Source: Flagellimonas myxillae
GTDB taxonomy: Bacteria; Bacteroidota; Bacteroidia; Flavobacteriales; Flavobacteriaceae
DNA: 64,000 nt
Direction: 5' to 3'
Assembly (NCBI RefSeq): GCF_023502235.1
Contig: NZ_JAMFLY010000002.1
Coordinates: forward strand, 1 to 64,000
Under the pieces are notes generated by a model that was given only the letters and a program-made list of their open reading frames with translations, was not told the origin of the DNA and did no database searches. Positions 27,483-50,929 of this stretch are shown here, piece by piece. How positions within the stretch are numbered: the first letter of the stretch is position 1; every line of letters starts with the position of its first letter. The translations under genes and the position numbers were made by a program.

Positions 27483-28832
27483 TTAGGCAAAAGTCAATCG
27501 AAAAACAGTCTTTTGGTTGGGAACGGAAAGCACCTTCAAACTACCTCCGTGCAGTTGCATCACCCTTTTTGAAAGACTTAATCCTATTCCGGTGCCCTCG
27601 GATTTCGTGGTGAAAAAAGGAACAAATATCTCGTCGATCAAATCCGGGGGTATACCCGGGCCATTATCCACAACTTCAATGAATTTGGTTTTTTCTTCCT
27701 GCCCAGCAATCAATAAAACCTTGCCATCAGTATTGCCCTTGACGGACTGAAGGGCGTTTTTGCACAAATTGATCAAAACTTGGGAGATTTGTTTTTCATC
27801 GATAAACAATTCCAGTTCGCTTGGCTCGCAAATTATTTTGAAACTCCCTGGACTGTCTTCCGTTCTGCTTGCCATCAACACATTGATTTTCTCCAAGAGG
27901 TCCATGGCTCTTACGATGGCCCTATTGGGCTCTGGCACGTTCAACAGACTTCTATAGGACTGGACAAATTCCATAAGATTGCCACCCTGTTCTTTAATGA
28001 CTTCCAAACCTTTCAGCGTATTTTTAATCTGGGTTTGGTCCAAATCTTCCAAGGCTACCATCTGCCCTCCTTTCCTATAGTACTTACTAATGGAATCGGA
28101 GATTGAAGCGATAGGGGTTATGGTATTCATGATCTCGTGCGTGAGCACTCTTATCAAACGCACCCAGGACTCCGTTTCCTTTTCATCCAATTCCTGCCTA
28201 ATATCTTGCACCACAACCAGCAATAAGGACTGACCATCCAAGTTGAGCGGAGTGGATTTAAGGGCCAACTGGTATTGCTCACGCTCATTGCTCAACTGAA
28301 ACAAACGCCTTTCAAAAGGTTTAAAGGCCTTTATGACCTCATAGAGGTTTTCATCAATCTGTGCCAGTTGTTTAATATGATTCAACGGTTTGTAGTTTAG
28401 TAAGTTTTCCAAGGTAGGATTGGAAAAAAGGATATGTCCTTTTTCATTAAAGGTCATGATCCCTATGCTGGCCTGTTTCAAAATTTCTTGATAGTACTGT
28501 TCCCTAATCTGCAATTGCAGATGGACTTCCTGAATTAGACCGTTGACCCTATTCAAGCTTTGGTTGAGTTCCTTAAAAGACTTTATGTTGACCCGTTCCG
28601 GGAATCTAAGTGTAAAATCCTCGTTGCGAATGGCGTCAAAAAAATAGGCAATCTTACGATTTGTCCGATTTACAAACCGAATCAAGGCATAGACCTGTGA
28701 CACTAAAAGAACCAGGGATATTCCAAAGGTAAAATACCATTCCTGTACCACGGACCATGCCATCAACAGGGCAGTCAATGCAATCAGCAGCACGTTGAAG
28801 ATCAATTGAATGTAAAAGTTACGACTGGCCAT
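27483..28832 (-). CDS. Sensor histidine kinase (NtrY/NtrB-like)
   Basis: A 449-residue membrane kinase. Two N-terminal helices (about residues 8-28 and 34-52) leave almost no periplasmic loop, so the signal is probably sensed in or at the membrane or by the PAS-like part (115-210). The phospho-acceptor is H232 in RVLTHEIMNTITP. The ATPase domain shows INLCKNALQS, VVDNGPGIPP, FFTTKSEGTGIGLSLSK. It overlaps the response regulator stop by one base (TAATG), so the pair is translationally coupled. It probably phosphorylates the sigma-54 activator encoded upstream. Confidence 0.92.
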   Translation of the reverse strand: MASRNFYIQLIFNVLLIALTALLMAWSVVQEWYFTFGISLVLLVSQVYALIRFVNRTNRKIAYFFDAIRNEDFTLRFPERVNIKSFKELNQSLNRVNGLIQEVHLQLQIREQYYQEILKQASIGIMTFNEKGHILFSNPTLENLLNYKPLNHIKQLAQIDENLYEVIKAFKPFERRLFQLSNEREQYQLALKSTPLNLDGQSLLLVVVQDIRQELDEKETESWVRLIRVLTHEIMNTITPIASISDSISKYYRKGGQMVALEDLDQTQIKNTLKGLEVIKEQGGNLMEFVQSYRSLLNVPEPNRAIVRAMDLLEKINVLMASRTEDSPGSFKIICEPSELELFIDEKQISQVLINLCKNALQSVKGNTDGKVLLIAGQEEKTKFIEVVDNGPGIPPDLIDEIFVPFFTTKSEGTGIGLSLSKRVMQLHGGSLKVLSVPNQKTVFRLTFA

Positions 28833-30196
28833 TATTTGTTCTTTTTCTTGATTTTGTTGTACAACGTCTGCCGGGAAACTCCCAATTGTTCTGCTGCTGC
28901 GCTATAATTACCGTCATGCTGCTCCAAGGCCTTTGCGATCATTTGTTGCTCCATCTCATCCAAAGTTGCCGGGCTATTCTCAAAGGATTGGGAAGTTTTG
29001 GAGTGGAGCAAAAAGTCTGTGGGTTTCAGGACGTTTCCTTCGGACAGAATTACGGCCCGTTCCATGGTGTGCTGCAATTCCCTCACATTTCCGGGCCAAG
29101 GATAATCCATCAATTTCTCTTGCGCCAAATTGTTCATTCGGAGTCCTGGCTTATCATATTTTGATGCAAATTTTTTGAGAAAGAAATCCGCTAGTACCAA
29201 AATATCGCCTTCGCGTTCCCGAAGGGGTGGAACCTCTATGTTAATGGTATTTATACGATAGAGCAAATCTTCCCGAAACAGACCTTCTTCCACCATTTGC
29301 TCCAGATTACAATTGGTTGCGCTAATCAACCGAATATCCACGGCAATGGTTCGGTTACTTCCCAATCGAACCACAGACTTATTCTGGATGGCAGACAATA
29401 GCTTAGCCTGCATTTGGAGGGAAAGGTTTCCCATTTCATCAAGAAAAAGAGTGCCCTTATGGGCAGCTTCAAATTTACCGGCCCGATCCTCCTTGGCATC
29501 GGTGAAGGAGCCTTTGGTATGGCCAAAGAGTTCGCTTTCGAACAAATTTTCTGCAATGGAACCCATATCCACTCCAATAAAAAGTTCATTTTTTCTGACT
29601 GAAAGTCTATGCAACTCTCTAGCTATTAGTTCTTTTCCGGTACCATTTTCCCCTGTAATCAGCACATTTACATCGGTCTTGGCCACTTTGCGAACCAAAT
29701 TCAAAACTTCGTTCAAGGCCTTCGAATTGCCAATTATAAAATTCTTGTCCTCGTTGATAACCTGCTTAAGCTTGTTCTCTTTTTGTTTAAGTTGATGGAT
29801 TTCCAATTTGGACTTTCGCAATTCGTAGGCAGACTTTACCGTAGTCAACAAGCGTTCATTGTTCCAAGGTTTCAATACAAAGTCGGAGGCTCCTTGCTTT
29901 AATGCTTTAACAGCAAGATCAACCGCGCCATAGGCGGTCATCATGATCACGGAAGTGTCTGGGGATTTCTTTTTTATTTCATTGAGCCAGTACAGCCCTT
30001 CATTTCCGGTGTTTACCCCAGCGGAAAAATTCATGTCCAAAAGAACAATGTCTAGCTGTTCCATATTGGGATAGGACGAAATTTGATTGGGATTAAAAAG
30101 CGTCTCCACACTCTTATATTCAAACTGTAAGAGTATCTCCAGTGCGCTCAATACACTTTTGTTATCGTCAATCACTAAGATTTTGGCATCTACCAT
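28832..30196 (-). CDS. Sigma-54-dependent response regulator (NtrC family)
   Basis: A 454-residue activator. Receiver: VIDD (8-11), phospho-Asp D54 in LLDMNF, K109 in VLKPW. AAA+ domain (about 152-380): Walker A GENGTGKE (182-189), Walker B GTLFLDEMGN (248-257), and a sigma-54 loop written GSFTDA (229-234) where the consensus is GAFTGA; the Phe-Thr contact pair is kept. A Fis-type helix-turn-helix ends the protein (AAEQLGVSRQTLYNKIKK). It is divergent from the export locus that has a sigma-54 promoter, which makes that locus its most likely target. Confidence 0.93.
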   Translation of the reverse strand: MVDAKILVIDDNKSVLSALEILLQFEYKSVETLFNPNQISSYPNMEQLDIVLLDMNFSAGVNTGNEGLYWLNEIKKKSPDTSVIMMTAYGAVDLAVKALKQGASDFVLKPWNNERLLTTVKSAYELRKSKLEIHQLKQKENKLKQVINEDKNFIIGNSKALNEVLNLVRKVAKTDVNVLITGENGTGKELIARELHRLSVRKNELFIGVDMGSIAENLFESELFGHTKGSFTDAKEDRAGKFEAAHKGTLFLDEMGNLSLQMQAKLLSAIQNKSVVRLGSNRTIAVDIRLISATNCNLEQMVEEGLFREDLLYRINTINIEVPPLREREGDILVLADFFLKKFASKYDKPGLRMNNLAQEKLMDYPWPGNVRELQHTMERAVILSEGNVLKPTDFLLHSKTSQSFENSPATLDEMEQQMIAKALEQHDGNYSAAAEQLGVSRQTLYNKIKKKNK

Positions 30197-30254
30197 GAGT
30201 TGGATTTATGGCTTTGGTACTAAACTACAATTTGACAACGGGAAATTCCAATGA

Positions 30255-30295
30255 GTGTAAAATATTTGGACAAATTTTGTACAAAAATTTTACAC
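30255..30295 (+). promoter_or_regulatory. 41-bp near-perfect palindrome, predicted activator binding site (enhancer)
   Basis: The left arm GTGTAAAATATTTGGACAAA and right arm TTTGTACAAAAATTTTACAC (after one central T at 30275) match as inverted copies at 18 of 20 positions. The centre lies about 109 bp before the start predicted from the sigma-54 promoter, the usual distance for NtrC-type enhancer sites. It is the only long palindrome in this intergenic region. Confidence 0.7.
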
Positions 30296-30357
30296 CTTTA
30301 TATAAATCAATAATTAAAAAATTGTCTATACCGTTGATTTTCAAATCATTGCTGTTT

Positions 30358-30373
30358 TGGCACAAGAATAGCA
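30358..30373 (+). promoter_or_regulatory. Sigma-54 promoter of the tolC-type export operon
   Basis: TGGCACAAGAATAGCA matches the -24/-12 consensus TGGCAC-N5-TTGCA except for one base in the -12 box. The GG and GC pairs have the required spacing. The predicted start is near 30384, leaving a leader of about 15 nt before the ATG at 30399. Confidence 0.75.
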
Positions 30374-30398
30374 ACCATTTTGGCACAGTATATTAAAA

Positions 30399-31742
30399 AT
30401 GACCATAAAATTCCATATTATCCTTCTTTTTCTTCTGGTTTCAGCAACCGGTCTTAGCCAAAATGTTTGGTCTTTGGACGAATGTGTTTCCTATGCCATA
30501 GAGCATAACCTTCAAGTACGGAACACATCCTATACAGAAAGTTCCAGTCGCGAGAGCTATCGTCAATCCGTTAGGGACCTTTTGCCAAACGTCAATGGTT
30601 TTGCCGACTATAGAATCCAATTTGGTAGATCGGAAGATCCAAACACCAACGACTTTGTAAATACAGAGTTTTTTAGAAACAATTATGCCCTCAATGCCAA
30701 CTTGGATGTGTTCCGTGGTTTTCAAAAATTGAATGCCATCAAAGCCAGCAAGTTTATTTACAAGGCAGCCCAGGAAGATGTCCAACAACAAAAATTTCTT
30801 TTGGCATTCAGGGTCATGCGGGCCTATTACGACATAAAGTTCTTCGAAGGGTTGGTGGCCAATTCGTTGGAACAACAGGAGATTTCCCAATCGAACTACG
30901 ATTTGGTCAACAAACAAGTGGATCTCGGCCTAATGGCCGGGGCCGACCTGTACGAAGCAGAATCCAATTTGTTGGGCGATAAGTTGTTGGTAACTCAAAA
31001 TCAAAACTTGTTGGCCAATGCCAAACTCGTTTTAATTCAGGAAATGAACTATGCCGAAACAGAAGAAATAGTGTTGGAGCCTACCATTGACCCCCTGATT
31101 GAAAACGCTTTGACCGAGGAGGTTTTGGTGGATTCCCTATATACCTCTGCCAGAGGTTTTGTTCCCCTGGTAAAATCACAGGAATTTAGAATGCAGGCGG
31201 CCAAAAAGCAATTGCAATCCACCCGTGGGTTTCTGTTTCCCTCCCTTTCCTTGTTGGCGGGATACGGAACCAGTTATTTTGAAACCAATGTGGACAACGA
31301 TGGTAACCTTATTCCTTTTAGAACGCAGATCAAGGACAACACTTCAAAATTTGTCGGGGCTGAACTTAGTATTCCGATAAGTAATGGTTGGTCCAACCGA
31401 TCTCGGGTAAAGCAACAGAAGATTGCCTACCTACAAGCCAAGAACAATTTGAAAATACAAGAGCAGGAGCTGTTTCAGCTCATTCAACAATTGGTTCAAA
31501 CGCACAATGCCCTATTGGCGGAGTTTGAACAAAGCAATAAACGGGTACAGGCACAAGAATTGGCCTTTGCCATTGCACAAAAACGCTATGAAAAAGGATT
31601 GATCAATGCGCTAGACCTTTTTCAGGCGAAGAATTTATTCGGTGTGGCGCAAAATGAAAACCTACAGGTAGGCCTTCGGTTAAAAGTGAACAAAAGCACG
31701 ATTGACTTTTACAACGGCCTTCCCATATTTAACATCAATTAA
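30399..31742 (+). CDS. TolC family outer membrane efflux protein
   Basis: A 447-residue protein with a signal peptide ending TGLSQ. TolC-type repeats: SLDECVSYAIEHNLQVR at the start of the first half and SKFVGAELSIPISNGWSNRS and QKRYEKGLINALDLFQAKN in the second, with long heptad-rich helices between. It forms the trimeric outer membrane tunnel of tripartite export systems. It is the first gene of the operon with adaptor, ATPase and permeases, behind a sigma-54 promoter. Confidence 0.92.
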   Translation: MTIKFHIILLFLLVSATGLSQNVWSLDECVSYAIEHNLQVRNTSYTESSSRESYRQSVRDLLPNVNGFADYRIQFGRSEDPNTNDFVNTEFFRNNYALNANLDVFRGFQKLNAIKASKFIYKAAQEDVQQQKFLLAFRVMRAYYDIKFFEGLVANSLEQQEISQSNYDLVNKQVDLGLMAGADLYEAESNLLGDKLLVTQNQNLLANAKLVLIQEMNYAETEEIVLEPTIDPLIENALTEEVLVDSLYTSARGFVPLVKSQEFRMQAAKKQLQSTRGFLFPSLSLLAGYGTSYFETNVDNDGNLIPFRTQIKDNTSKFVGAELSIPISNGWSNRSRVKQQKIAYLQAKNNLKIQEQELFQLIQQLVQTHNALLAEFEQSNKRVQAQELAFAIAQKRYEKGLINALDLFQAKNLFGVAQNENLQVGLRLKVNKSTIDFYNGLPIFNIN

Positions 31743-31750: not shown

Positions 31751-33001
31751 ATGGATATACAACTTGAAAAAAAGAAAGGACTTCGACCAAAACACTATGG
31801 CTACATTGGCATAGGTCTCTTGCTCTTATTTGTTTTGTGGAAGTTGGTTTTCTCCAATTCCGTTTCCACATATCGAACAGAAAAGGAACGGCTCACCATA
31901 GCCCAAGTGAACGAAGGCAAATTTGACGATTATATTACCATTAATGGCAACGTAGCTCCCATCGCTACCATATATATGGATGCCTACGAAGGCGGGAGGG
32001 TTTCCGAAAAGCTGATTGAGGAAGGAACGATGGTGAAAAAGGGGGACATTATCCTAAAACTGGAGAACACCAACCTTTACGAGCAGATTCTTTCCAGCGA
32101 AAGCAATATGGCGTTAAAGGAAAATAACCTGCGCCAGACACGCCTTGATTTCGATTCACGCCAGTATGATGGCCGCAGAGCTTTAGCTACGGCGTCCAAT
32201 GAGCTGCAGCGGCTAAAACGGAACTACGAACAGAACGAAGCGCTCTATCAAGATGAACTCATTTCCAGGGAGGTATATCTTACCTCCAAAGAAAATTATG
32301 AGCTTTCTCAAAAACAATACGAAATCGTGAAGATCCAAACGGAAAATGATGATAAAATGCGAACGACTTCCTTAACCGGCTTGGACGCAGATCTTACTCG
32401 AATGAAAAAAACCCTTTCCATGGTATACGAGCGATTGGATCACCTTAATGTGAGGGCGCCTGCAGATGGCCAACTCGGATTCTTGGATGCCGAAATTGGA
32501 CAGAACATTTCCCAAGGGCAGCGTATAGGGCAAGTGAATGTACTCACAGACTTTAAAATTGAAGCCGAAATAGACGAACATTATATCGACCGGGTAAAAC
32601 GCGAATTGTCCGCCTCCTTGGAACGAAACGGAAAGGAATTCGGGTTGCGGTTACGAAAGGTTTATCCGGAAGTACGCAATGGCCGGTTCAATGTAGATCT
32701 TGTTTTCACCGGGGAAAAACCGGAAACCATCCGAGCGGGGCAGAGTTATAATATCCGATTACAGTTAGGGGCCTCCAGCGATGCCCTGTTACTCCCAAAA
32801 GGAGGCTTTTTCCAAAGTACCGGTGGACAATGGGTGTTTGTGGTAAACAACAATGGCGATGAAGCCTTGAAGCGCGATATAAGAATAGGAAAACAAAATT
32901 CAAGATATTTTGAGGTGTTGGATGGGCTTCAACCGGGGGACCAGGTTATTACGAGCAACTATGACAGTTTTGGAACCGCGGAAAGAATAGTCCTAAAATA
33001 G
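31751..33001 (+). CDS. HlyD/MacA family periplasmic adaptor
   Basis: A 416-residue adaptor with one N-terminal membrane anchor (about residues 17-34). A biotinyl-lipoyl-like half-motif (AYEGGRVSEKLIEEGTMVKK, then GDIILKLENTN) is followed by a long coiled-coil hairpin (about 110-225), the second half-motif (VRAPADGQLGFLDAEIGQNI), a beta-barrel part and a membrane-proximal end (LDGLQPGDQVITSNYD). It bridges the permease and the TolC-type tunnel. It starts 8 bp after the tolC-type gene. Confidence 0.92.
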   Translation: MDIQLEKKKGLRPKHYGYIGIGLLLLFVLWKLVFSNSVSTYRTEKERLTIAQVNEGKFDDYITINGNVAPIATIYMDAYEGGRVSEKLIEEGTMVKKGDIILKLENTNLYEQILSSESNMALKENNLRQTRLDFDSRQYDGRRALATASNELQRLKRNYEQNEALYQDELISREVYLTSKENYELSQKQYEIVKIQTENDDKMRTTSLTGLDADLTRMKKTLSMVYERLDHLNVRAPADGQLGFLDAEIGQNISQGQRIGQVNVLTDFKIEAEIDEHYIDRVKRELSASLERNGKEFGLRLRKVYPEVRNGRFNVDLVFTGEKPETIRAGQSYNIRLQLGASSDALLLPKGGFFQSTGGQWVFVVNNNGDEALKRDIRIGKQNSRYFEVLDGLQPGDQVITSNYDSFGTAERIVLK

Positions 33002-33106: not shown

Positions 33107-33802
33107 ATGATACAGATAGAGAACCTTAAAAAAAGTTTTAGAACCGAAGAAGTGGAAACCTTGGCTCTTAATGGCGTGAATCTCAACGTAGCTGAGGGGG
33201 AATTTGTTGCCATCATGGGGCCTTCCGGATGTGGAAAATCAACCCTGCTAAATATCATTGGCATGTTGGATAATCCCTCCGAGGGCAACTATCAATTTGC
33301 CGGCCATCAAGTGGGAGGGTTACGGGAAAGTCAACGCACCCAGTTGCGCAAAGGCAACTTAGGTTTTGTCTTCCAGAGTTTTAATCTGATCGACGAGCTA
33401 ACCGTTTATGAAAATGTGGAGCTTCCCCTTATCTATTTAAAAATGAGTAAGGCTGAGCGCAGACAAAAAGTAAAAGCGGTACTGGAGCGCATGAAAATTG
33501 CACATAGGGAAAAGCATTTTCCGCAGCAATTGTCCGGAGGGCAGCAACAAAGGGTGGCCATAGCCCGTGCCGTGGTCACAAATCCCAAATTGATCTTGGC
33601 GGATGAGCCAACAGGTAATCTTGATTCCAAAAACGGGATTGAGGTTATGAGCCTACTTACTGAACTGAACCAAGAGGGAACCACCATTGTGATGGTAACC
33701 CACTCGGACCGCGATTCGCACTACGCCCACAGGATCATCAACCTGTTCGACGGGCAAATTGTCACCCAAAGTCAAAATAAACCTATGGGTGCCATGGCAT
33801 AG
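33107..33802 (+). CDS. ABC transporter ATP-binding protein (LolD/MacB-type), ATPase 1
   Basis: A 231-residue stand-alone ATPase. Walker A is GPSGCGKST (38-46), the Q-loop in FVFQSFNL, the signature LSGGQQQRVAIARA (142-155), Walker B LILADEP (162-168), D-loop NLDS and H199. All catalytic positions are canonical. This subfamily powers mechanotransmission-type FtsX/MacB permeases rather than substrate channels. It directly precedes the seven permease genes and is probably their common motor. Confidence 0.93.
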   Translation: MIQIENLKKSFRTEEVETLALNGVNLNVAEGEFVAIMGPSGCGKSTLLNIIGMLDNPSEGNYQFAGHQVGGLRESQRTQLRKGNLGFVFQSFNLIDELTVYENVELPLIYLKMSKAERRQKVKAVLERMKIAHREKHFPQQLSGGQQQRVAIARAVVTNPKLILADEPTGNLDSKNGIEVMSLLTELNQEGTTIVMVTHSDRDSHYAHRIINLFDGQIVTQSQNKPMGAMA

Positions 33803-33896: not shown

Positions 33897-36281
33897 ATGT
33901 TTAAGAACCATTTAAAAATTGCTTGGAGAAATCTTGTAAAACGCAAGGTGTTTACAGCCATCAATGTCCTTGGTCTGGCCATAGGATTTGGCAGTAGTGT
34001 TTTAATTTATCTGTTCTTAAACCATCATCTTTCTTTCGATAATTTTCATGCCAGCCCGGAGCGCATTTATCGATTTGTAACTGAGGAACACCGGGATTAT
34101 GTCGAATTTGAGGCGACAGTTCCTCCGGCTTTTGCGAACGAGTTTAGGGAAAACTATGGGTATGCGGAAAAAGTTGCCAAAATAGCCCACTGGGAAAACA
34201 TCCAGTTGAACGTTGGACTATCAGATAATGAGGTCCAAGTAAAGGAAGACCTTCTATTTGCAGAAGCGGATTTCTTCGAAATTTTCAACTATCCCTTGCA
34301 AGAGCAATTGGGTGCCAGGACATTGGCTGAGCCCAATACGGCCTATTTGACCCAAGAGATGGCCAATAAGTTGTTTGGCGATGCAAACGCACTTGGGGAA
34401 ACCATGCTTTTTGATAATCAGGAAACCTTGGAGGTCATCGGTATTTTGGAGAATCTTCCCAAGGCCACCATGATCAAGGAAGGTATTTTTGTCTCTTTTG
34501 AGACCTTAAAGAAGTTGGATGATTTTGCAGGTTTGGAGGTCTGGTCCGGAATGACCAGTAGCCTGGAGTGTTTTGCCCTTCTACATCCTAATCAAGATGT
34601 AAGTGCCATTGAAACTGCACTCTTGGAACTTCCCAAAAAGCATAGGCCAAATAGTAAAAATAGGCATGAATACAAATTGCAACCCTTGTCCGACATCCAT
34701 TTTAATCCCAACTATGGGGGACTGGACCCAACCCTTTTATGGGCCTTTGGCATTATCGGCTTGTTCCTTATTTCCATTGCCTGCATCAATTTCATCAACA
34801 TCTCCACGGCCCAGGCATTTTATCGTTCCAAGGAAATCGGGATTCGAAAAGTGCTGGGAAGTTTCAAAAATCATCTGTTCTGGCAATTTCTTTCCGAAAC
34901 TTTTGTGATCAGCATTTTTGCCCTGGCCATAGGCGTGGTTTTCGCATCAATTTCGCTGCCTGCCTTCAATGACCTTTTTAAAACCGAGCTGTCCTTGGAC
35001 AGCCTTTTGTCCCTTCGGTTTTTTGCATTTGTGGGCCTGCTTTTAATGCTGATTTCCTTTCTGTCTGGAAGTTACCCTGGAATATTGATGTCGCGCATCG
35101 TCCCGGTTCTGGCCTTAAAGGGAAAACTCAATCATAACGATACCGGTGGTTCATCGACTCGGAAGGTTTTGGTTGTGGCCCAATTTGCCATATCCATCAT
35201 CCTTATTGCAGCCACCTTGATTATCTCTAGACAAATAGACTATGCCATCAACACGGATCTTGGTTTCGACAAAGAGTCCATCGTAATGGTAAACATTCCC
35301 AAGGAATTGGACAAGGTGCAATTGGAATCGCTTACCCAAAGGATGGGGCGAATCCCTGGGGTACAGAATGTAAGCGCCTGTTTGAGCAGTCCGGGAGGTT
35401 CCGAAAACAGATGGGGCACCGGGGTGAAGTACCACAACAGGCCAGAATACGAAGAATTTGGTATCCAAGTTAAATTGGCGGACCTCAATTACATAAACAC
35501 CTTTGACCTTAACTTGGTTGCGGGTCGAAACTATTTTGAAAATGATTCTATTGCCGAGGTACTGGTCAACGAACAGTTTGGGAAAAAAGTAGGGGTAATA
35601 GATCCTGAGGAACTGCTCGGCAAGAAATTTGAGGCCAACGGTGGATATATCAAAGCAACGATTGTAGGTGTGGTCCAAGATTTCCACGATGGGGATTTCA
35701 CCCACGAAATCAGTCCAATATTTTTTGCTCAAAATAGTGATTGGTATGACGAAATTGCCTTAAAAATAAACGTCAAGGAGGTCTCAGCGACCTTAGCACA
35801 AATAGAGGACACATGGTTGGATACCTTTAAAGGTTACATCTATGAATACAACTTTTTGGATGATCGTGTGGCCGAACAATATGAGGAAGAACAACGCTAT
35901 CTCTCCCTTTCCAAAGTTTTCTCTGGCCTTGCCATTTTAATAGGGTGCCTTGGTATTTATGGCCTTATCCTGTTTTATGTAGGTCAGCGAACCAAAGAAA
36001 TTGGTATTCGCAAGGTTTTGGGCAGCGGTGTTGCCCACATTTTGGCCTTGTTTACCGTAGATTTTTTCAGGCTGATCCTAATTGCAGGTTTGTTGGCAAC
36101 CCCCATCTCATGGTACTTGATGGAACAATGGCTCCAGGGCTATACCTATAGAACCGAAATACATTGGTGGATTTTTGCCTTGGCCATCCTGTCCATTATG
36201 ATCATCACCTTGATTACGATAAGTTACCAGACCTTAAAAGCTGCCGTGGCCAATCCGATCAAGAGTTTAAGAACGGAGTAA
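33897..36281 (+). CDS. ABC permease 1 of 7, double MacB/FtsX-module type
   Basis: A 794-residue inner membrane permease. Helix 1 (about 19-41) is followed by a periplasmic MacB_PCD-like domain, helices 2-4 (about 288-398), helix 5 (about 422-440), a second periplasmic domain, and helices 6-8 (about 673-778). Each half has the coupling segment KEIGIRKVLGS (near residues 312 and 700) that should contact the ATPase. One chain therefore equals two MacB/LolC-like halves. The first 34 bases and a 41-base block at the end are identical to permease 2. It ends with SLRTE, like all seven. Confidence 0.92.
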   Translation: MFKNHLKIAWRNLVKRKVFTAINVLGLAIGFGSSVLIYLFLNHHLSFDNFHASPERIYRFVTEEHRDYVEFEATVPPAFANEFRENYGYAEKVAKIAHWENIQLNVGLSDNEVQVKEDLLFAEADFFEIFNYPLQEQLGARTLAEPNTAYLTQEMANKLFGDANALGETMLFDNQETLEVIGILENLPKATMIKEGIFVSFETLKKLDDFAGLEVWSGMTSSLECFALLHPNQDVSAIETALLELPKKHRPNSKNRHEYKLQPLSDIHFNPNYGGLDPTLLWAFGIIGLFLISIACINFINISTAQAFYRSKEIGIRKVLGSFKNHLFWQFLSETFVISIFALAIGVVFASISLPAFNDLFKTELSLDSLLSLRFFAFVGLLLMLISFLSGSYPGILMSRIVPVLALKGKLNHNDTGGSSTRKVLVVAQFAISIILIAATLIISRQIDYAINTDLGFDKESIVMVNIPKELDKVQLESLTQRMGRIPGVQNVSACLSSPGGSENRWGTGVKYHNRPEYEEFGIQVKLADLNYINTFDLNLVAGRNYFENDSIAEVLVNEQFGKKVGVIDPEELLGKKFEANGGYIKATIVGVVQDFHDGDFTHEISPIFFAQNSDWYDEIALKINVKEVSATLAQIEDTWLDTFKGYIYEYNFLDDRVAEQYEEEQRYLSLSKVFSGLAILIGCLGIYGLILFYVGQRTKEIGIRKVLGSGVAHILALFTVDFFRLILIAGLLATPISWYLMEQWLQGYTYRTEIHWWIFALAILSIMIITLITISYQTLKAAVANPIKSLRTE

Positions 36282-36304
36282 CACCAATAAAAAAATGAGA
36301 AGCC

Positions 36305-38704
36305 ATGTTTAAGAACCATTTAAAAATTGCTTGGAGAAGTATCCTTAAGAACAGGGGCATTTCTTCTATTAATATTATTGGTCTCTCATTTGGTATCGCT
36401 TCGTGCCTACTCATTGCACTTTTTGTAATCGATGAAATCAGCTATGATAAATTCAATGAAAATGCCGATCGAATTGTTCGGATTGTTTTCAGGGCCGAAA
36501 TAGGGGATGAAGTCATAAAAGAAGGTGGTGTCATGGCGCCTGTAGCGCAGACATTAATACAGGATTTCCCTGAAGTATTGGATGCCACTCGAATCAGAGA
36601 TTTGGGAGCCCAAAAAATCAGTGTTGAACATAACACGTACAGGGAAAATAGATTCGCCTTTGTGGATGCCAATTTTTTTGATGTCTTTACCCTACCCATT
36701 ATTGAAGGTAATTCCAAATCTCCCTTGGAAAAGCCTGATACCGCAGTTATTACCAAGGCGGAAGCCCTAAAGTTCTTCGGGTCTACAAATGCAATCGGTA
36801 GAATCTTTTATGTCGAAGGACATGAAGAACCGATAACAGTTACCGGAATCATTGAAGAAGTGCCAAAAAACTCGCATTTCCATTTCGATATTTTTTTGTC
36901 CATGAACGGGTTTGAAGAAGCTAAAAGCGACTCATGGTTCAGGGGAGATTTCTTCACATATCTTCTTTTGCAAGAAGGAAGCAACTATAAGGGTTTACAA
37001 GCAAAATTGCCACAGGTTATTGAGAAATATATGGGACCCGGGATGCAAGAAGAAATGGGTGTGCCTTTTGAGGAATTTACCAAAGACAATGAACTAGGCT
37101 TCGCGCTACAGCCCCTTACGGATATCCATCTGCATTCGGACAACTCCTCCTATAGTGAACTAGAGCAAGGGGGGGATATTAAATATGTTTACATTTTTAG
37201 TGTTGTTGCACTCTTTATGTTGTTGATTGCCTGCACCAATTTTGTGAACCTTGCAACTGCTGCAGCTAGCAAAAGAGCAAAGGAAGTTGGCATCCGCAAG
37301 GTTATGGGGTCCAACAAAAATCAATTGTTATATCAATTCTTGGCGGAATCTTTCATAGCTACTCTTTTGGCGATGCTGCTAGCTGTTATATTGGTAGTTC
37401 TGTTCTTGCCTGTTTACAATGAACTATCTGGTAAGGAATTACAATTTACATACCTATTGCAACCTTCCTTCTTGTCTTCGCTACTCTTGTTGACCTTCAT
37501 TATTAGTCTTTTAGCCGGAGGATATCCTGCATTTTTTCTTTCATCCTTTAAACCCATTTCCGCATTAAAAACTAAGTTTCTTGGGAGTGGCGACAATAAA
37601 AATATCCGCAATGGCCTGGTGGTGTTCCAGTTTGTAATTTCCTCGGGGTTGATCCTATCCACCCTGATTGTAAACCAACAAATGGATTATATCCAGAATA
37701 AAAACCTGGGCTATGAAAAAGATCAGATTTTGGTCATAAGGGATTCCTATCTTTTGGGCTCCAACCAAACTGCTTTTAAAAATGAATTGCTTAAAAATCC
37801 TAAAGTAGCTAACCTCACCCAATCTGCCTTTGTGCCAGCTGGACCTTCCGATAAAAACCAGGCATTGATTTACCTCAACGGAGAAGTAAACAGAAGAATG
37901 CCGGAATATAATATTGATGAAAACTATTTGTCCACCATGGGTATGAAGTTGGTCGCAGGACGTAATTTTTCAAAGGAATTTGGTGCTGATTCAACAAACG
38001 TTATCATTAATCAAACATATGCCAAAATATTCGGTTTTGGTAATGATGCTGTTGGAAGGACAATAAATGACGGACATAATAAGCTTACCGTAATTGGTGT
38101 TGTCAAGGATTTTCATTTTAACACATTTCATCAATCCATCGAGCCTTTGTTGATCCGATATCGAACCTATGGCGGACTTATTGTGCGATCTAAAACGAGT
38201 GATATGGCAGGCTTGATCGCCGATACCCAAAGGCTATGGAATAGTTTCAATTCCAAAGAAACCTTCGGATACACACTTCTCAATGAATCTTATGATCAAA
38301 CCTATATCACCGAACAGAAAATGGGAACAGTGCTCAACATTTTTGCATTACTTACTGTTTTGGTTGCCTGTCTGGGGCTTTTTGGTCTGGTCACCTTTTC
38401 CACCGAACAGAGGTTCAAGGAAATCGGTATACGAAAGGTATTAGGTTCTACAGTTTCGCAGATTGTGGCCATGCTCTCGAAAGATTTTTTAAAACTCATT
38501 GGTATTTCATTTCTATTGGCATTCCCCCTAGGATATTATTTCATGGGAAAATGGCTCAATAGCTTTGCGTATAAGACCACTATTAGCTGGCAGGTATTTT
38601 TATCTGCTGGAGCATTCACTTTAATTATAGCATTACTAACGGTCAGCTGGCATAGCTATAAAGCTGCCGTGGCCAATCCGATCAAGAGTTTAAGAACGGA
38701 ATAA
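36305..38704 (+). CDS. ABC permease 2 of 7, double MacB/FtsX-module type
   Basis: A 799-residue member with the same eight-helix, two-periplasmic-domain plan. Coupling segments are KEVGIRKVMGS (near 326) and KEIGIRKVLGS (near 704). The N-terminus MFKNHLKIAWRS and C-terminus AAVANPIKSLRTE repeat those of permease 1. The middle is clearly divergent, so substrate-facing domains have changed while the ends stay constant. The coding sequence is somewhat more AT-rich than permease 1. The gap to the previous gene is 23 bp, so it is co-transcribed. Confidence 0.92.
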   Translation: MFKNHLKIAWRSILKNRGISSINIIGLSFGIASCLLIALFVIDEISYDKFNENADRIVRIVFRAEIGDEVIKEGGVMAPVAQTLIQDFPEVLDATRIRDLGAQKISVEHNTYRENRFAFVDANFFDVFTLPIIEGNSKSPLEKPDTAVITKAEALKFFGSTNAIGRIFYVEGHEEPITVTGIIEEVPKNSHFHFDIFLSMNGFEEAKSDSWFRGDFFTYLLLQEGSNYKGLQAKLPQVIEKYMGPGMQEEMGVPFEEFTKDNELGFALQPLTDIHLHSDNSSYSELEQGGDIKYVYIFSVVALFMLLIACTNFVNLATAAASKRAKEVGIRKVMGSNKNQLLYQFLAESFIATLLAMLLAVILVVLFLPVYNELSGKELQFTYLLQPSFLSSLLLLTFIISLLAGGYPAFFLSSFKPISALKTKFLGSGDNKNIRNGLVVFQFVISSGLILSTLIVNQQMDYIQNKNLGYEKDQILVIRDSYLLGSNQTAFKNELLKNPKVANLTQSAFVPAGPSDKNQALIYLNGEVNRRMPEYNIDENYLSTMGMKLVAGRNFSKEFGADSTNVIINQTYAKIFGFGNDAVGRTINDGHNKLTVIGVVKDFHFNTFHQSIEPLLIRYRTYGGLIVRSKTSDMAGLIADTQRLWNSFNSKETFGYTLLNESYDQTYITEQKMGTVLNIFALLTVLVACLGLFGLVTFSTEQRFKEIGIRKVLGSTVSQIVAMLSKDFLKLIGISFLLAFPLGYYFMGKWLNSFAYKTTISWQVFLSAGAFTLIIALLTVSWHSYKAAVANPIKSLRTE

Positions 38705-38725
38705 CCCATCAAAAAACGAATAGTC

Positions 38726-41161
38726 ATGTTCAAAAATCATATCAAAATTGCCTGGAGAAGTTTGAAAAAGCAACCCTTTTTCACCTTTCTAAACTTGTTC
38801 GGACTCGCCATTGGAATTGCAGGTGCTCTCCTAATTGCCCTTTACATTCAAGATGAACTGAGCTACGATGCCACATTTGCCGATGCCGATCGCATTCATC
38901 GCATAAATGCAGATATCAAATTTGGTGGCGAAGATCGCAAGTTTGCCGTGGCCCCTGCACCTTTGGCAGAGGCGCTGGACAACGACTTTGCCGAAGTAGA
39001 ACTGACCACAAGATTTCGGACAAGGGGAAGCTTACTGATCAAGCGCACGGGGACGGAAGTGAATGTGAAGGAACAACAAGCCACATTTGTAGATTCCACC
39101 TTTCTTAAAATGTTTGGGCTAAAACTATTGGCGGGTGATCCCAATACCGCCTTAAAATTGCCCAATACCTTGTTATTGACCAAAACCGCTGCCGAAAAGC
39201 ACTTTAAAATTAAGGAAGCCGTGGGGCAGACCTTGGAACTGAACAACACCCAAACCTTTACCGTGGTCGGTGTGGTTGAGGACATGCCAAAAAACTCTTT
39301 CCTAAGGGATCATTCCGTGTTTATGGCCATGTCGGGCTACGAGGATTCCCGGGTGGTAAACTGGGGAAGCAACAATTATCAGACCTTTTTTAAACTGATT
39401 CCTTCAGCCAAGGCTTCTGATTTGGAGGCACCCCTTCGTGGATTTTTGGGCAAATATGTTATCCCTGGGGTCCAACAATTTATGCCGGGAATTACGGAAG
39501 AACAGTTCTTGGCCGCTGGCAATCATCTGTTCTATCATTCCATTCCCTTGACAGATATTCATTTGAATTCGGACCGGGTTGCAGAAATAAGTCCTAACAA
39601 CGATATCCAGAGTATTTATATCCTATCCTTTATAGCCATTTTCCTTTTGGTTTTGGCCTGTGTGAATTTTATGAATCTATCCACCGCACAATCTCTAAAA
39701 AGAGCTAAAGAGGTGGGTGTTCGAAAAACTTTGGGGTCCAACAAGCTAGATCTAGTCCGTCAATTTTTGGTCGAATCTGGACTGGTTTCATTTGGAGCAT
39801 TGCTATTGGCCATTTTGCTGGCCATTTTTGCCTTGCCCTTTTTCAATGATTTGGCAGACAAGGCCATTGCGTTCCCATACGATAGCCCTGTTTTTTGGTT
39901 GGGGCTTGTGGCTGCTGGTGTTTTGCTTGGTATTTTCTCAGGAAGTTACCCGGCATTCTTTATGTCCAAATTTGTTCCTGTAAAAGTGCTAAAAGGATCC
40001 AACAGTAACAGCTTGGGCGGAAGTAAAGTGCGCAATGGGCTGGTAATTTTCCAGTTTGCGATATCCGTCTTCCTGATTATTGGAACCCTTGTGGTATATC
40101 AGCAGTTGGAATACATACAAAACAAAGATCTGGGTTTCTCCAAAGAACAGGTGCTCATCGTAAACGATGTGTATACAATAAGTAGTCAAGCAGAGTCCTT
40201 CAAGGAAGAGGTGAAAAAGTTGGGGTTTGTAAAGAATGCCACCATAACCGGTTTTTTTCCCACTCCCTCTTCCCGTAGTGATAGCACTTTTGCCCCTGAA
40301 GATGGGGTTACCGACCAGGAACGTGCCGTAAGCATGCAAACCTGGTATGTGGACCAAGACTACGTCAACACCATGGGATTTGAATTGATCGCAGGTCGGG
40401 ATTTTGACAGACGATTTAAAAATGATTCCACCAGTATTATCATAAATGAATCTGCATTGGCCACTATGGATCTTTCCCCTCAAGAAGTTTTAGGGAAGCG
40501 TTTCACAAGTGATTGGGGATTGGAAAATCCAAAGTTCTATTCCGTCATTGGAGTGGTTAAGGATTTTCATTTCTCCCCATTCCGTGAGGACATTGAAGCT
40601 TTAAGCCTTTTTCTGGGCGACGATAGGGGTTCCATGGCCATAAAGTTGGAAACCACAGATTTTCAGAGGGCATTGGCCAGCGTAAAGGATATCTGGAACA
40701 GATTGGCTCCAGGTCAGCCATTTGACTATTATTTTATGGAAGATTCCTTTAATAATACGTATAAGGCAGAGCAGCGTTTGGGTCGCATCTTTTTCATATT
40801 TACCACCCTATCTATTTTAATTGCCTGTTTGGGACTCTTCGGTTTGGCCGCCTTCAATGCCGAAAAACGTACCAAGGAAATTGGGGTAAGAAAGGTGTTG
40901 GGTGCCAGTGTTGGCCAAATCACCTACAAATTGTCCGCAGACTTTTTGAAGCTTGTCGGGGTTGCCATTTTTATTTCCCTGCCCATTGGTTGGTATGCGA
41001 TGAACAAGTGGCTCGAGGACTTCTCGTACCGTATTGAGGTAAAATGGTGGGTGCTGCTGCTTGCAGCTGTGGTTGCCGTGGTAATTTCACTGCTCACCGT
41101 AAGCTATCAGAGCATCAAGGCAGCTATTGTAAATCCGGTTAAAAGCTTGCGGACGGAATAA
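38726..41161 (+). CDS. ABC permease 3 of 7, double MacB/FtsX-module type
   Basis: An 811-residue member, the longest of the seven. Start MFKNHIKIAWRSLKKQPFF; coupling segments KEVGVRKTLGS (near 327) and KEIGVRKVLGA (near 716). The first periplasmic domain has its own sequence (LLIKRTGTEVNVKEQQATFV). Its C-terminus is AIVNPVKSLRTE. It is preceded by the leader ATCAAAAAACGAATAGTC directly before the ATG and lies 21 bp behind permease 2. Confidence 0.92.
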   Translation: MFKNHIKIAWRSLKKQPFFTFLNLFGLAIGIAGALLIALYIQDELSYDATFADADRIHRINADIKFGGEDRKFAVAPAPLAEALDNDFAEVELTTRFRTRGSLLIKRTGTEVNVKEQQATFVDSTFLKMFGLKLLAGDPNTALKLPNTLLLTKTAAEKHFKIKEAVGQTLELNNTQTFTVVGVVEDMPKNSFLRDHSVFMAMSGYEDSRVVNWGSNNYQTFFKLIPSAKASDLEAPLRGFLGKYVIPGVQQFMPGITEEQFLAAGNHLFYHSIPLTDIHLNSDRVAEISPNNDIQSIYILSFIAIFLLVLACVNFMNLSTAQSLKRAKEVGVRKTLGSNKLDLVRQFLVESGLVSFGALLLAILLAIFALPFFNDLADKAIAFPYDSPVFWLGLVAAGVLLGIFSGSYPAFFMSKFVPVKVLKGSNSNSLGGSKVRNGLVIFQFAISVFLIIGTLVVYQQLEYIQNKDLGFSKEQVLIVNDVYTISSQAESFKEEVKKLGFVKNATITGFFPTPSSRSDSTFAPEDGVTDQERAVSMQTWYVDQDYVNTMGFELIAGRDFDRRFKNDSTSIIINESALATMDLSPQEVLGKRFTSDWGLENPKFYSVIGVVKDFHFSPFREDIEALSLFLGDDRGSMAIKLETTDFQRALASVKDIWNRLAPGQPFDYYFMEDSFNNTYKAEQRLGRIFFIFTTLSILIACLGLFGLAAFNAEKRTKEIGVRKVLGASVGQITYKLSADFLKLVGVAIFISLPIGWYAMNKWLEDFSYRIEVKWWVLLLAAVVAVVISLLTVSYQSIKAAIVNPVKSLRTE

Positions 41162-41196
41162 ATGAAGAGAAAAAATAGCAATCAAAAAACGAGAAC

Positions 41197-43569
41197 ATGT
41201 TTAAGAACTATCTAAAAACCGCCTGGCGGACCCTCTTAAAAAATAAGGTCTACTTTCTTATCAATACCATTGGCCTATCCATTGCCATTGCGGTTTCCTT
41301 GTTGATGTTGTTATGGGTTTTTGATGAATACAACATAAACAAATACCACGAAAAGGACGATCAGCTTTATCTGGTTAAAAGAACCGTTCCATTGGAACAT
41401 GAAGTTCTGGATGTGTACGAGGGTGTTTCCTATCCCTTATTGGATGAAGCCAAAAAACAATTTGCCGAAATTGAGGATTACATCACTTTGGGAGCCACTT
41501 TTGAAGATAACCTTAGAATAGGGGACACGGATTTTAGGGCTCCCGGAGCCTTCACCAACTCCGCATTTTTCAAGAGTTTTACCGTTCCGGTGCTCTTGGG
41601 CAATGTTGAAGATCTCGACAATAAACCGGAGGCATTAGCCATCTCTGAAAGTTTGGCCCAAAGATTTTGGGGAGAGGATTGGGCCTCTAAAGCCTTGGGC
41701 AGCCCAGTGCATATTTACGACAATGGCGATTTTGCCGTATCCCTGGTCTATGCTGATTTTCCCTCGCAATCCTCCATTCAAAATGATTTCTACTACGGAT
41801 TCCAAAGGCATTTAAGCCAGAACGACTGGATGTTGGAATGGGGCAACAACGGTATGCAGGGGGCTTTTTTACTTCGCGAGGATGCCAACGTTTCACAACT
41901 GTCCCAAAAAGTGGAGGCCCTGTTTCATGAAAACATCACAGGAGAATTTAAAGAGGGTATTTTGTTTCAAAAATTCTCCGATAATTACCTATATAATCAA
42001 TTTGACGAACGCGCAGAAGTTTCTGGAGGGCGAATAGAATACGTTCGAATTTTTGCGCTAGCGGCCATTTTTCTCTTGGTAATTTCCTGTATCAATTTCA
42101 TTAACCTTTCCACCGCCTATGCAACCAAACGGGCAAGCGAAATAGGGGTGCGAAAGGCCATTGGTGCCCAAAAGAACACCCTGGTTGGGCAGTTTTTTAC
42201 CGAAACTTCCTTGATTACTTCCTTGTCATTCTTGGTGGGAATAGGTCTTACTTTATTACTCCTGCCGTTTGTAAACACCCTCACAAATAAAAATCTAGGG
42301 TTGGATATATCCCAATCCTCCCTGTGGTTTATGCTGTTGGGCGTTTTTGTGCTTACAACCTTGTTATCCGGAGCCTATCCTTCATTCGTAATCTCGTCCT
42401 TCAAACCTGTTACTGCTCTAAAAGGCTTGGGCAAGGAACAAAAAAGTACGGGTACACTTCGCAAAGGTTTGGTGGTACTCCAATTTTCCTTGGCATTGTT
42501 ACTGATCATTTCTGCATTTGTTATCCAAAAACAGATAGACTATGTAAATCAGAAGGACCTTGGAATAGCCAAAAACCATATCATATCCATTCACCAAGAC
42601 CAGGTGCTCACCCAAAAGTATGAGGCATTGCGCAACGAGCTATTGGTTTCAGAGGGCATAGAAGGTGTAACCTTGGTGGGGCCCTCGCCGTTATCAACCC
42701 CTGCATCCAGTAGTGGTGTAAGTTGGCCAGGGAAAACCCAAGAACAGGAAAACATCGAATTTGCCCTGTTATGGACTGCGCATAACTTTCCGGAAACCTT
42801 CGAGATTCCACTAGAACACGGCAACTATTATAGGGAGGGGACCCAAGACACCTTGAATTTGGTAATCAACAAAACTGCGGCTAACATTATGGGCTTGGGT
42901 GATGACCCTGTGGGCAAAGCTGTGGACTTTTGGGGTGGCAAACGGGAAATTATTGGGGTGCTAAAGGATTTTCATAACCGTTCCCTGTACGAACCCATCC
43001 AGCCCACCGTGTTTTTATTGGAACCCAATAATGCCGGGGCCATGATCGTAAAACTAAATGGAAACCAAACCAAGGCCGCCTTGGCCTCCGTACAGGCCGT
43101 TTTTGATAAAGTGTTGCCAAACCATCCGTTGCATTATGACTTTGTAGATCAAGAGTATGCGGCCAATTACAGTGCGGAGCTGCTCACCGGAGCCCTTGCC
43201 CGATACTTTGCCATAATCTCTGTTTTGCTATCCTGTCTTGGCCTTTTTGGCTTGGCAACTTTTACCGCCAAGGAACGGACCAAGGAAATTGGGATTCGAA
43301 AGGTATTGGGAGCCTCTGTACAAAATATTACCGTATTGGTCTCGAAGGATTTTTTCAAACTGATCGGGATTGCCATCCTTATTGCTTCGCCTTTGGCTTA
43401 TTATTTTATGGGCAATTGGCTTGGAGATTTTGCGTACAGAATCAACATTCCGGTGCTTGCATTTGTTCTCGCTGGTGCACTCACCTTGTTGGTGTCCCTG
43501 ATTACGATAAGTTTTCAGGCTATTAAATCAGCAACATCAAATCCCGTGGACAGTCTTAGAACAGAATAA
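41197..43569 (+). CDS. ABC permease 4 of 7, double MacB/FtsX-module type
   Basis: A 790-residue member. Start MFKNYLKTAWRTLLKNKVYF; coupling segments SEIGVRKAIGA (near 313) and KEIGIRKVLGA (near 695); C-terminus SNPVDSLRTE, with Asp where the others have Lys. It is one of the more divergent members: the first periplasmic domain is built differently (LYLVKRTVPLEHEVLDVYEG). It lies 35 bp behind permease 3 with the leader ATCAAAAAACGAGAAC before the ATG. Confidence 0.92.
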   Translation: MFKNYLKTAWRTLLKNKVYFLINTIGLSIAIAVSLLMLLWVFDEYNINKYHEKDDQLYLVKRTVPLEHEVLDVYEGVSYPLLDEAKKQFAEIEDYITLGATFEDNLRIGDTDFRAPGAFTNSAFFKSFTVPVLLGNVEDLDNKPEALAISESLAQRFWGEDWASKALGSPVHIYDNGDFAVSLVYADFPSQSSIQNDFYYGFQRHLSQNDWMLEWGNNGMQGAFLLREDANVSQLSQKVEALFHENITGEFKEGILFQKFSDNYLYNQFDERAEVSGGRIEYVRIFALAAIFLLVISCINFINLSTAYATKRASEIGVRKAIGAQKNTLVGQFFTETSLITSLSFLVGIGLTLLLLPFVNTLTNKNLGLDISQSSLWFMLLGVFVLTTLLSGAYPSFVISSFKPVTALKGLGKEQKSTGTLRKGLVVLQFSLALLLIISAFVIQKQIDYVNQKDLGIAKNHIISIHQDQVLTQKYEALRNELLVSEGIEGVTLVGPSPLSTPASSSGVSWPGKTQEQENIEFALLWTAHNFPETFEIPLEHGNYYREGTQDTLNLVINKTAANIMGLGDDPVGKAVDFWGGKREIIGVLKDFHNRSLYEPIQPTVFLLEPNNAGAMIVKLNGNQTKAALASVQAVFDKVLPNHPLHYDFVDQEYAANYSAELLTGALARYFAIISVLLSCLGLFGLATFTAKERTKEIGIRKVLGASVQNITVLVSKDFFKLIGIAILIASPLAYYFMGNWLGDFAYRINIPVLAFVLAGALTLLVSLITISFQAIKSATSNPVDSLRTE

Positions 43570-43583
43570 ACAAATAAACCCTA

Positions 43584-43607
43584 GTCTAGTTTATGCTGAG
43601 CCTAGAC
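43584..43607. repeat. Short inverted repeat in the permease 4-5 gap
   Basis: GTCTAG (43584-43589) and CTAGAC (43602-43607) surround TTTATGCTGAGC. The sequence ATGCTGAGCCTAGACGAAGT resembles part of the larger repeat units at 14.7 kb. Confidence 0.45.
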
Positions 43608-43635
43608 GAAGTAAAGGGGTCAAAAAACGAATATC

Positions 43636-46035
43636 ATGATAAAGAATTATTTAAAAATCGCCTGGAGAAACCTTGTAAAGAACAAGGCCTATTCGATAAT
43701 CAACGTTGGTGGATTGGCTCTTGGAATGGCGGTTACCTTGATTATTGGCCTCTGGTTGGCGGATGAGCTCTCACACGACAACTATTTCTCCCAAAAAGAT
43801 AGGATGGCCCAGGTGCTCCAATCCCAGACCTTTAATCAAAATGTGGGAACGGGGCCTGCTATTCCGCGTCCATTGGAAAAAGCGCTGCGCGATGGTTACA
43901 TGGACAATTTCAAATACTTGATTATGTCCTCTTGGACCAACGATCTATATCTAAAGTTCAATGAGACCAGTATTTCTAGACCAGGGAATTTTATGCAACG
44001 TGAAGCCCCGGAATATTTGGAACTGGAAATCTTGAAGGGTGAAAAGGATGGTCTTCGGGAGATAAATTCCATCATGCTTTCCGAATCAACCGCTGAAGCC
44101 CTTTTTGGCAAGCAAGACCCCATTGGTAAAGTGGTTAAAGCAAGTAATCAGTACGATTTAATGGTCACTGGGGTCTTCAAGGACCTTCCGTATAACAACT
44201 CGTTTAGGGATATTGACTATCTAATCCCATGGGACAAATACGTTTCCATTCAGGAATGGGTCAAAAATGCTGAGGATAACTGGGGAAACAACTCTTTTCA
44301 GATGTTTGTTCAACTGGCCGATAATGTAAGCATGGACCAAGTGTCCAGCATCATCAAAGATGTAAAGAAGGACTTGAATGAGGATACCGCTGAGTTTAAC
44401 CCACAACTCTTTTTGTTGCCGATGAAGGATTGGTACCTGAGGAGCAATTTTGAAAATGGCAAACAAGTAGGCGGCAGGATCAAGTATGTTTGGTTGTTTG
44501 GTGTCATCGGGGCCTTCGTGCTCCTGTTGGCTTGTATAAACTTTATGAACCTCAGCACCGCCAGATCGGAAAAACGGGCCAAGGAAGTAGGGATACGAAA
44601 ATCTATCGGCTCGCAGCGCAACCAATTGATCAATCAATTTTTGAGCGAATCTTTCCTAGTGGTCCTTTTTGCCTTTCTAATGGCCATATTCATTGTGGTT
44701 TTGTCGCTCACCGGGTTTAACGAATTGGCTCGTAAGGAAATTGACTTCCCATGGGCGTCAACAAAATTCTGGTTGGTCTCCTTGGGCTTTGTACTATTCA
44801 CATCGCTTTTGGCGGGCAGTTATCCAGCCCTGTACCTATCATCCTTCAGGCCTGTTGATGTATTAAAGGGCACCTATCAGTCTGGCAAATATTCCGGTTT
44901 GCCAAGAAAAATATTGGTGGTACTTCAATTTACCGTCTCTGTGGCCTTTATCATTGGAACCGTAATTGTAATGCAGCAAATCAACTTTGCCAAAAACAGA
45001 CCTGTGGGTTATGATCGGGAAGGATTGATCCAAATTCCAACATTTAGTCAAGATTTCTCGGGAAAAACAGATTTAATGCGAACCGAATTTCTAAACTCTG
45101 GTGCAATCGTAGAAATGTCAACCTCCAGTAGTCCCACAACAAGAATTTGGTCCAACAGAAGCGGATATACCTGGGAGGGCAAACCTGAAGGTTTTCAAGA
45201 AGATCTTGCCTGGACCGAGGTATCGCCCGAATATGCAAAATCCCTCAATCTTAAAATTGTCGAGGGCAGGGATTTCTCAAGGGAATTTGCCTCTGATTCA
45301 ATGGCGGTCCTGATCAATGAAACCGCAAAAAGATACTTGGGTATGGAAAACCCCGTAGGTATGCTTTTAAAAGACGATGACACAGAAGATCCCGACCCAC
45401 CATTAAAAATTATTGGGGTGGTGGAAGATATGATTGCCCAATCTCCGTATGAGCCTGTAAAGCAAGGCATGTATGTATTTGATCGCTTTGACAATTTCAG
45501 CTATTACAATATGCGATTGAATCCTAACCAGAGTGCTAGCCGGAATATTGCGGTAATAGAACAAGTATTCAAGGAGCATTTTCCAGATATCCCGTTCGAA
45601 TATGATTTTGTTGATGCGGAATATGCAGAAAAATTTGCCGCCGAAGAACGCGTGGGTACCCTATCGGGTATTTTTACTGCCTTGGCGATTCTGATAAGCT
45701 GTCTTGGCTTGTTTGGACTCACCTCCTTCGTGGCTGAACAGCGTACCAAGGAAATTGGAGTGCGAAAGGTGTTGGGTGCCTCGGTCTTTAATGTTTGGAA
45801 TATGCTTTCCAAAGACTTTTTAAAACTGGTCACCATATCCTGTTTTATAGCCGTGCCCATATCCTACTATGTAATGAACGGGTGGCTGCAGGAGTACCCC
45901 TATCGGGTCATCCTCAAATGGTGGATATTCGCCTTGGCCATGATCGGTGCCCTTGGTATCACCATGCTAACAGTTAGTTTTCAAGCCATAAAAGCTGCAC
46001 GTTCCAACCCTATTAAAAGTTTGAGAACGGAATAA
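43636..46035 (+). CDS. ABC permease 5 of 7, double MacB/FtsX-module type
   Basis: A 799-residue member, closest to permease 6. The two share the first helix (INVGGLALGMAVTLIIGLW against INIGGLALGMAVTLMIALW), the GNFMQR and GEKDGLR motifs in the first domain, STSSSPTT in the second and the C-terminus AARSNPIKSLRTE. Coupling segments are KEVGIRKSIGS (near 315) and KEIGVRKVLGA (near 704). It is preceded by a 66-bp gap with a small inverted repeat and the A-rich leader. Confidence 0.92.
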   Translation: MIKNYLKIAWRNLVKNKAYSIINVGGLALGMAVTLIIGLWLADELSHDNYFSQKDRMAQVLQSQTFNQNVGTGPAIPRPLEKALRDGYMDNFKYLIMSSWTNDLYLKFNETSISRPGNFMQREAPEYLELEILKGEKDGLREINSIMLSESTAEALFGKQDPIGKVVKASNQYDLMVTGVFKDLPYNNSFRDIDYLIPWDKYVSIQEWVKNAEDNWGNNSFQMFVQLADNVSMDQVSSIIKDVKKDLNEDTAEFNPQLFLLPMKDWYLRSNFENGKQVGGRIKYVWLFGVIGAFVLLLACINFMNLSTARSEKRAKEVGIRKSIGSQRNQLINQFLSESFLVVLFAFLMAIFIVVLSLTGFNELARKEIDFPWASTKFWLVSLGFVLFTSLLAGSYPALYLSSFRPVDVLKGTYQSGKYSGLPRKILVVLQFTVSVAFIIGTVIVMQQINFAKNRPVGYDREGLIQIPTFSQDFSGKTDLMRTEFLNSGAIVEMSTSSSPTTRIWSNRSGYTWEGKPEGFQEDLAWTEVSPEYAKSLNLKIVEGRDFSREFASDSMAVLINETAKRYLGMENPVGMLLKDDDTEDPDPPLKIIGVVEDMIAQSPYEPVKQGMYVFDRFDNFSYYNMRLNPNQSASRNIAVIEQVFKEHFPDIPFEYDFVDAEYAEKFAAEERVGTLSGIFTALAILISCLGLFGLTSFVAEQRTKEIGVRKVLGASVFNVWNMLSKDFLKLVTISCFIAVPISYYVMNGWLQEYPYRVILKWWIFALAMIGALGITMLTVSFQAIKAARSNPIKSLRTE

Positions 46036-46094
46036 AAACTTGCCTTGAGCTTCTTGCTTCCGAAGTCGAAGGGTCAATCAAAAAATGACGAACC

Positions 46095-48491: not shown

Positions 48492-48542
48492 CTACCAATG
48501 CCGTGATATAACTCATCATTAATCAAAAAAAGAACACTCATC

Positions 48543-50912: not shown

Positions 50913-50929
50913 AAATTAAAAACAAAGAC

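Follow-up and report, generated by a model that had tools for sequence, protein, structure and literature searches.

The window analysed here, a 64,000-nucleotide stretch of a Flagellimonas myxillae contig, carries a two-component gene pair and an export operon in divergent orientation. On the minus strand lie the genes for a sensor histidine kinase (27483..28832; 449 aa, with a HATPase_c domain) and an NtrC-type response regulator (28832..30196; 454 aa, with Pfam domains Response_reg, Sigma54_activat and HTH_8), and on the plus strand those for a TolC-family outer-membrane protein (30399..31742; OEP domain), which is the first gene of the operon, a HlyD-type periplasmic adaptor (31751..33001) and an ABC ATPase (33107..33802). 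These flanking genes are as a preliminary description of the locus had claimed, but the operon is larger than was given there. The ATPase gene is followed by seven consecutive genes for duplicated MacB/FtsX permeases (plus strand, 33897..50912; open reading frames starting at 33897, 36305, 38726, 41197, 43636, 46095 and 48543, each coding for approximately 790-811 aa), and then by a second ABC ATPase (plus strand, 50927..51592), an open reading frame with ABC motifs and with homologues in related operons. MacB_PCD and FtsX domains were matched in the first three permeases, the other four being assigned by open reading frame sequence, and comparison with NCBIfam indicates that the first permease is ADOP-like. 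One TolC protein, one HlyD protein and two ATPases are common to the seven ADOP-type permeases (33897-50912), and related operons differ in the number and kind of their permeases. The regulator and the export operon are divergent neighbours across approximately 40 genera, also in more distant Bacteroidota. At the 3' side of the kinase gene is a gene for a small protein resembling the C-terminal part of GreA/GreB (27020-27472; a weak match, below the Pfam cutoff), and its position beside the kinase gene is conserved in the genus.

Between the two divergent transcription units, a sigma-54 promoter of the form TGGCAC-N5-TAGCA (TGGCACAAGAATAGCA) is present on the plus strand at 30358..30373, as previously stated. 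The GG of the -24 box (30359-30360) and the GC of the -12 box (30371-30372, the G at 30371) are separated by 10 bp, the arrangement by which sigma-54 promoters are recognised. The exact motif occurs a single time in the 3.94-Mb genome, which encodes one sigma-54. Strong sigma-54 activators number only four in this genome, and one or more of these lack a helix-turn-helix domain (HTH); a response-regulator sigma-54 activator of 387 aa (L128, G000:C1:404800) ends without a recognisable DNA-binding domain. All of 55 nonredundant loci share the GG, C and A in the -24 box, as well as the T and G in the -12 box (100%), and the base after the G of the -12 box is C in 29%, T in 54% and A in 16%. The -12 GC originally described is thus present in the window, and its G holds throughout, but its C is found in only 29% of loci; the TAGCA of the window, which deviates from TTGC, is therefore best seen as one of the forms that a relaxed T-N-G-(T/C/A) box can take. 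Transcription would start at about 30384, which gives a predicted tolC leader, from +1 to the start codon, of approximately 15 nt in the window, and the median across loci is likewise 15 nt.

Upstream of the promoter is a 41-bp palindrome, located where it had been reported (30255-30295, centre 30275, about -109 relative to the predicted +1), with 18 of its 20 arm positions complementary (GTGTAAAATATTTGGACAAA and TTTGTACAAAAATTTTACAC). When the 202-bp intergenic region was shuffled 3000 times with its dinucleotides preserved, this degree of symmetry was reached once, and no other palindrome with 20-bp arms in the 64-kb window exceeds 16/20. Comparison across genera nevertheless leads us to reject the palindrome as a single unit: its symmetry decays to a mean of approximately 13/20, and what persists is a pair of 17-bp sites of the form TGT-N11-ACA, namely operator 1 (TGTAAAATATTTGGACA, 30256..30272, centred at about -120) and operator 2 (TGTACAAAAATTTTACA, 30278..30294, centred at about -98), which with a 5-bp spacer account for the palindrome (30255..30295). 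The half-site bases TGT and ACA are 96-100% conserved in the 55 nonredundant loci, and in many genera each 17-bp unit is itself a good palindrome, as in TGTCCAAAAATTGGACA followed by TGTAAAATAATTTTACA at locus L160. The suggestion that the palindrome is the activator's own binding site accordingly survives as regards the sites, which occur at orthologous loci, though they are to be read as a pair of 17-bp operators and not as one 41-bp element. That an inverted repeat lies in an intergenic region might also suggest that it terminates transcription or folds as an RNA hairpin between the divergent genes; this one, however, separates the 5' ends of two divergent units, a place where transcripts are not expected to terminate, and it is the two 17-bp units and their 5-bp spacer, not complementarity over 41 bp (mean 13/20), that have been conserved. 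We give this explanation next to no credence.

The two operators are 22 bp apart, centre to centre, and would thus lie on one face of the helix. From the start of operator 2 to the GG of the -24 box, the distance is 80-83 bp, a geometry that persists across approximately 40 Flavobacteriaceae genera and at a Bacteroidales locus. Of 48 Flavobacteriaceae loci, 46 combine an operator pair at exactly 22 bp with a promoter at 80-83 bp, compared with none of 4800 shuffles, each motif, here and below, having been defined on the same loci in which it was counted. One of the two exceptions has CGGCAT in place of TGGCAT, and the other has two changed operator bases. In an alignment of 30 loci from the genus, the palindrome, the -24 box and an element on the regulator side are kept, the remaining intergenic sequence being variable, and all 30 loci retain the sites. 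A scan of related genomes had been proposed in the preliminary description, and practically every orthologous locus has the sites, at fixed spacing; no module was found at loci L148, L180 and L181, where there is a contig end or another gene order.

The module also occurs away from its usual position. A genus-wide scan, with a pattern that required one operator only plus the promoter, gave matches in 36 of 36 good-quality genomes, nearly always at the orthologous locus, and the reversed pattern gave a single match in 41 genomes. One genome (G025) has three further, distant matches (L288, L289 and L290), and in all three another operator-like site lies 22 bp upstream; the matches precede two orphan FtsX permeases and one PF00144 (beta-lactamase-fold) gene. 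Moreover, in seven related operons the complete module recurs within the operon, in six of the seven directly before a permease gene. Within the 683 kb searched for such internal copies, all seven were in forward orientation, with none in reverse and none at six other spacings.

A different function for the operators is suggested by the opposite side of the intergenic region. A candidate sigma-A -7 element for the regulator-kinase operon (TTGTAGTTTAG, minus strand, 30221..30236), picked out by eye, sits in an AAACTA.AATTG block that is conserved in the genus alignment. The presence of a conserved minus-strand element of this type near the start of the regulator gene, from which the operators would sit at roughly -40 to -80, could mean that the site serves mainly in autoregulation of the regulator-kinase operon, with a secondary part in control of the export operon. 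Yet it is the distance from operator to sigma-54 promoter that is rigid (80-83 bp), whereas that from operator to regulator start ranges from approximately 21 to more than 300 bp, and modules exist with no regulator nearby. As the main role of the site, we therefore find autoregulation very improbable, though it may take place in addition to control of the export operon.

Which protein would bind the operators? The regulator consists of a receiver, a sigma-54-activating AAA+ domain and a Fis-type HTH, the domain set of the NtrC family, and the solved chain closest to it is the NtrC-family 4l4u. Its loop reads GSFTDA instead of GAFTGA, and GSFTDA or GAFTDA is found at 54 of the 55 nonredundant loci; GAFTDA and GSFTGA loops are known from Desulfovibrio activators, among variants thought to be functional (PMC4641369). 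The recognition helix of the window regulator, SRQTLYNK (type A), goes with operators of the form TGT-N11-ACA (type A), and a second helix, TRASLYRR (type B), goes with TGTnCGn4CGnACA (type B; for example, TGTTCGATATCGAACA). Loci with a type-A helix have the A operator in 58 of 61 cases and the B operator in none of 61 (at L184 and L203 the helix is type A, but the A operator was not found), and loci with a type-B helix have the B operator in 27 of 38 cases and the A operator in 2 of 38 (chance about 4%), counts that rest mainly on two clades and not on independent events, so that the covariation is consistent with a recognition code rather than proof of one. At type-B loci the commonest distance between partner operators is 21 bp, the gap again being 5 bp. 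Some independent support for the match between helix and operator comes from divergent type-A loci (L065, L183 and L186; 53-58% identity), of which L065, from Bacteroidales, keeps a pair of A operators at the 22-bp distance despite an identity of 58%.

The covariation bears directly on the possibility that some other dimeric regulator, a repressor for instance, binds the palindrome, and that a different enhancer-binding protein of the genome activates the sigma-54 promoter. The genome does encode three other strong sigma-54 activators, and one without an HTH could act without a site of its own. However, operator type varies with the neighbouring regulator's recognition helix, and the distance between operator and promoter is fixed even where the regulator gene is elsewhere, and we consider a different regulator improbable. 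Because of the synteny, the covariation between helix and operator and the transplanted copies of the module, we instead assign both operators to the adjacent NtrC-type regulator, which would be expected to bind them.

The interval between operators and promoter contains one further conserved feature, a nearly symmetric, IHF-like element (30327..30351; family consensus YAAn4YTGATWATCARn4TTR). Whichever strand is read, the columns conserved in the family fall on those of the IHF consensus WATCARNNNNTTR. Scored against WATCARN4TTR, the window copy agrees at 8 of 9 positions, and the family mean at a fixed offset from the -24 box is 7.2/9 (7.6/9 on the reverse strand), the mean for shuffled sequences being 3.8. 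There are two HU/IHF-family genes in the genome, and a protein of this family may bind the element. Elsewhere in the genome (L127, about 4847; G000:C1:713848), a conserved sigma-54 promoter and an IHF-like element, the latter recognised by eye, precede an OsmC-family gene that adjoins a cNMP/PAS-type sigma-54 activator, an arrangement seen in about nine other genera. The similarity of the elements at two unrelated promoters favours a general host factor over a regulator specific to the export operon.

In known systems, phosphorylated NtrC-type activators assemble from dimers into a hexamer that remodels the sigma-54 polymerase through a DNA loop. Comparison of loci brings out conserved parts, a fixed geometry, covariation between regulator and operator, and the same module before other permease genes, and we think it highly probable that the region is a sigma-54 control region for the export operon, made up of twin operators for the product of the adjacent kinase/regulator pair, a bend and a promoter. 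On this model, the membrane kinase would phosphorylate the NtrC-type regulator, which would bind as two dimers at the two 17-bp operators, about 98 and 120 bp before the start and facing the same side of the helix. The two bound dimers would seed an ATPase hexamer, a bend at the IHF-like site would bring this hexamer to the RNA polymerase-sigma-54 complex waiting at TGGCAC-N5-TAGCA, and ATP hydrolysis would open the promoter of the tolC-hlyD-ABC-permease operon. The original proposal, in which the divergently encoded kinase and activator turn on the tolC-hlyD-ABC operon, is likewise supported, as far as sequences can tell, by the conservation of the sites and by the covariation of helix and operator.

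Enhancers of the NtrC type are well known from sigma-54 promoters (glnA/NtrC, ZraR and GlrR). The motifs of Desulfovibrio enhancer-binding proteins have TGT/ACA half-sites 9, 11 or 12 bp apart (PMC4641369). The module in the window resembles both in having two 17-bp dimer sites at approximately -100 to -120, a -24/-12 promoter and a neighbouring regulator gene, but differs from them in its rigid spacing (22 bp, and 80-83 bp to the -24 box), its relaxed -12 C, its ADOP-type exporter target and its occurrence in Bacteroidota. As regards the target, the best named NCBIfam models are those of the DarBCD/ADOP group (DarC for the adaptor, DarD for the ATPase, and DarBCD/ADOP for the permease), though all of these matches fall below the curated cutoffs (201/450, 299/375 and 127/700 bits against the equivalog cutoffs for DarBCD); unlike the DarBCD darobactin exporter, the present operon combines seven permeases with a TolC protein. 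Excerpts of a 2025 survey report that sigma-54 promoters are enriched before COG0577 (MacB/FtsX) permeases in Bacteroidia, a link termed a previously unrecognized regulatory axis (PMC12316311). According to the same excerpts, only activators with an exact GAFTGA were retained, so proteins with GSFTDA or GAFTDA, like the window regulator, would be excluded; the permease family is shared with our system, but in these excerpts no regulator, operator or geometry is named for the COG0577 permeases (PMC12316311). Our literature search among open-licence papers found no description of this regulator-exporter system. The results provide a concrete operator sequence, a geometry and a target class for a widespread and apparently uncharacterised family of Bacteroidota two-component systems, and they link large exporters with many permeases, of the antimicrobial-peptide type, to control by sigma-54. 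If the correspondence between helix and operator holds, it would make regulons predictable from sequence in genomes where sigma-54 control has hardly been studied.

What might the kinase respond to? Judged by hydropathy alone, it is of the intramembrane-sensing kind (two transmembrane helices, loop shorter than approximately 25 residues): two helices are predicted (Kyte-Doolittle peaks for windows starting at 5-14 and 33-37), joined by a connector of approximately 8 residues, with no sizeable periplasmic domain. In the BceRS-BceAB envelope-stress modules, a short-looped kinase with two transmembrane helices is found beside an FtsX-family ABC transporter, and the window shows the same pairing, but with an NtrC-type sigma-54 activator in place of the OmpR-type regulator. 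By analogy, our guess is that the kinase senses envelope stress or damage, or transporter activity, perhaps together with the permeases.

Finally, a second TTGGCA box (TTGGCACAG, plus strand, 30380..30388) spans the predicted +1 (30384), its GG falling exactly 23 bp after that of the -24 box. It is present at 37 of the 55 loci, all of which have regulators at least 69% identical to that of the window. We rejected it as a second promoter because there is no conserved G at the corresponding -12 position. The box could give sigma-54 itself a second place to dock, so that RNA polymerase is held as soon as it has left the promoter, a reading we regard as unlikely; if true, it would be the sigma-54 counterpart of sigma-70-dependent promoter-proximal pausing and a second control step for the operon. 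Nor is the box a general feature of flavobacterial sigma-54 promoters, most OsmC-family orthologues being without it; the OsmC-family promoter does carry it in the window genome and at one other locus.
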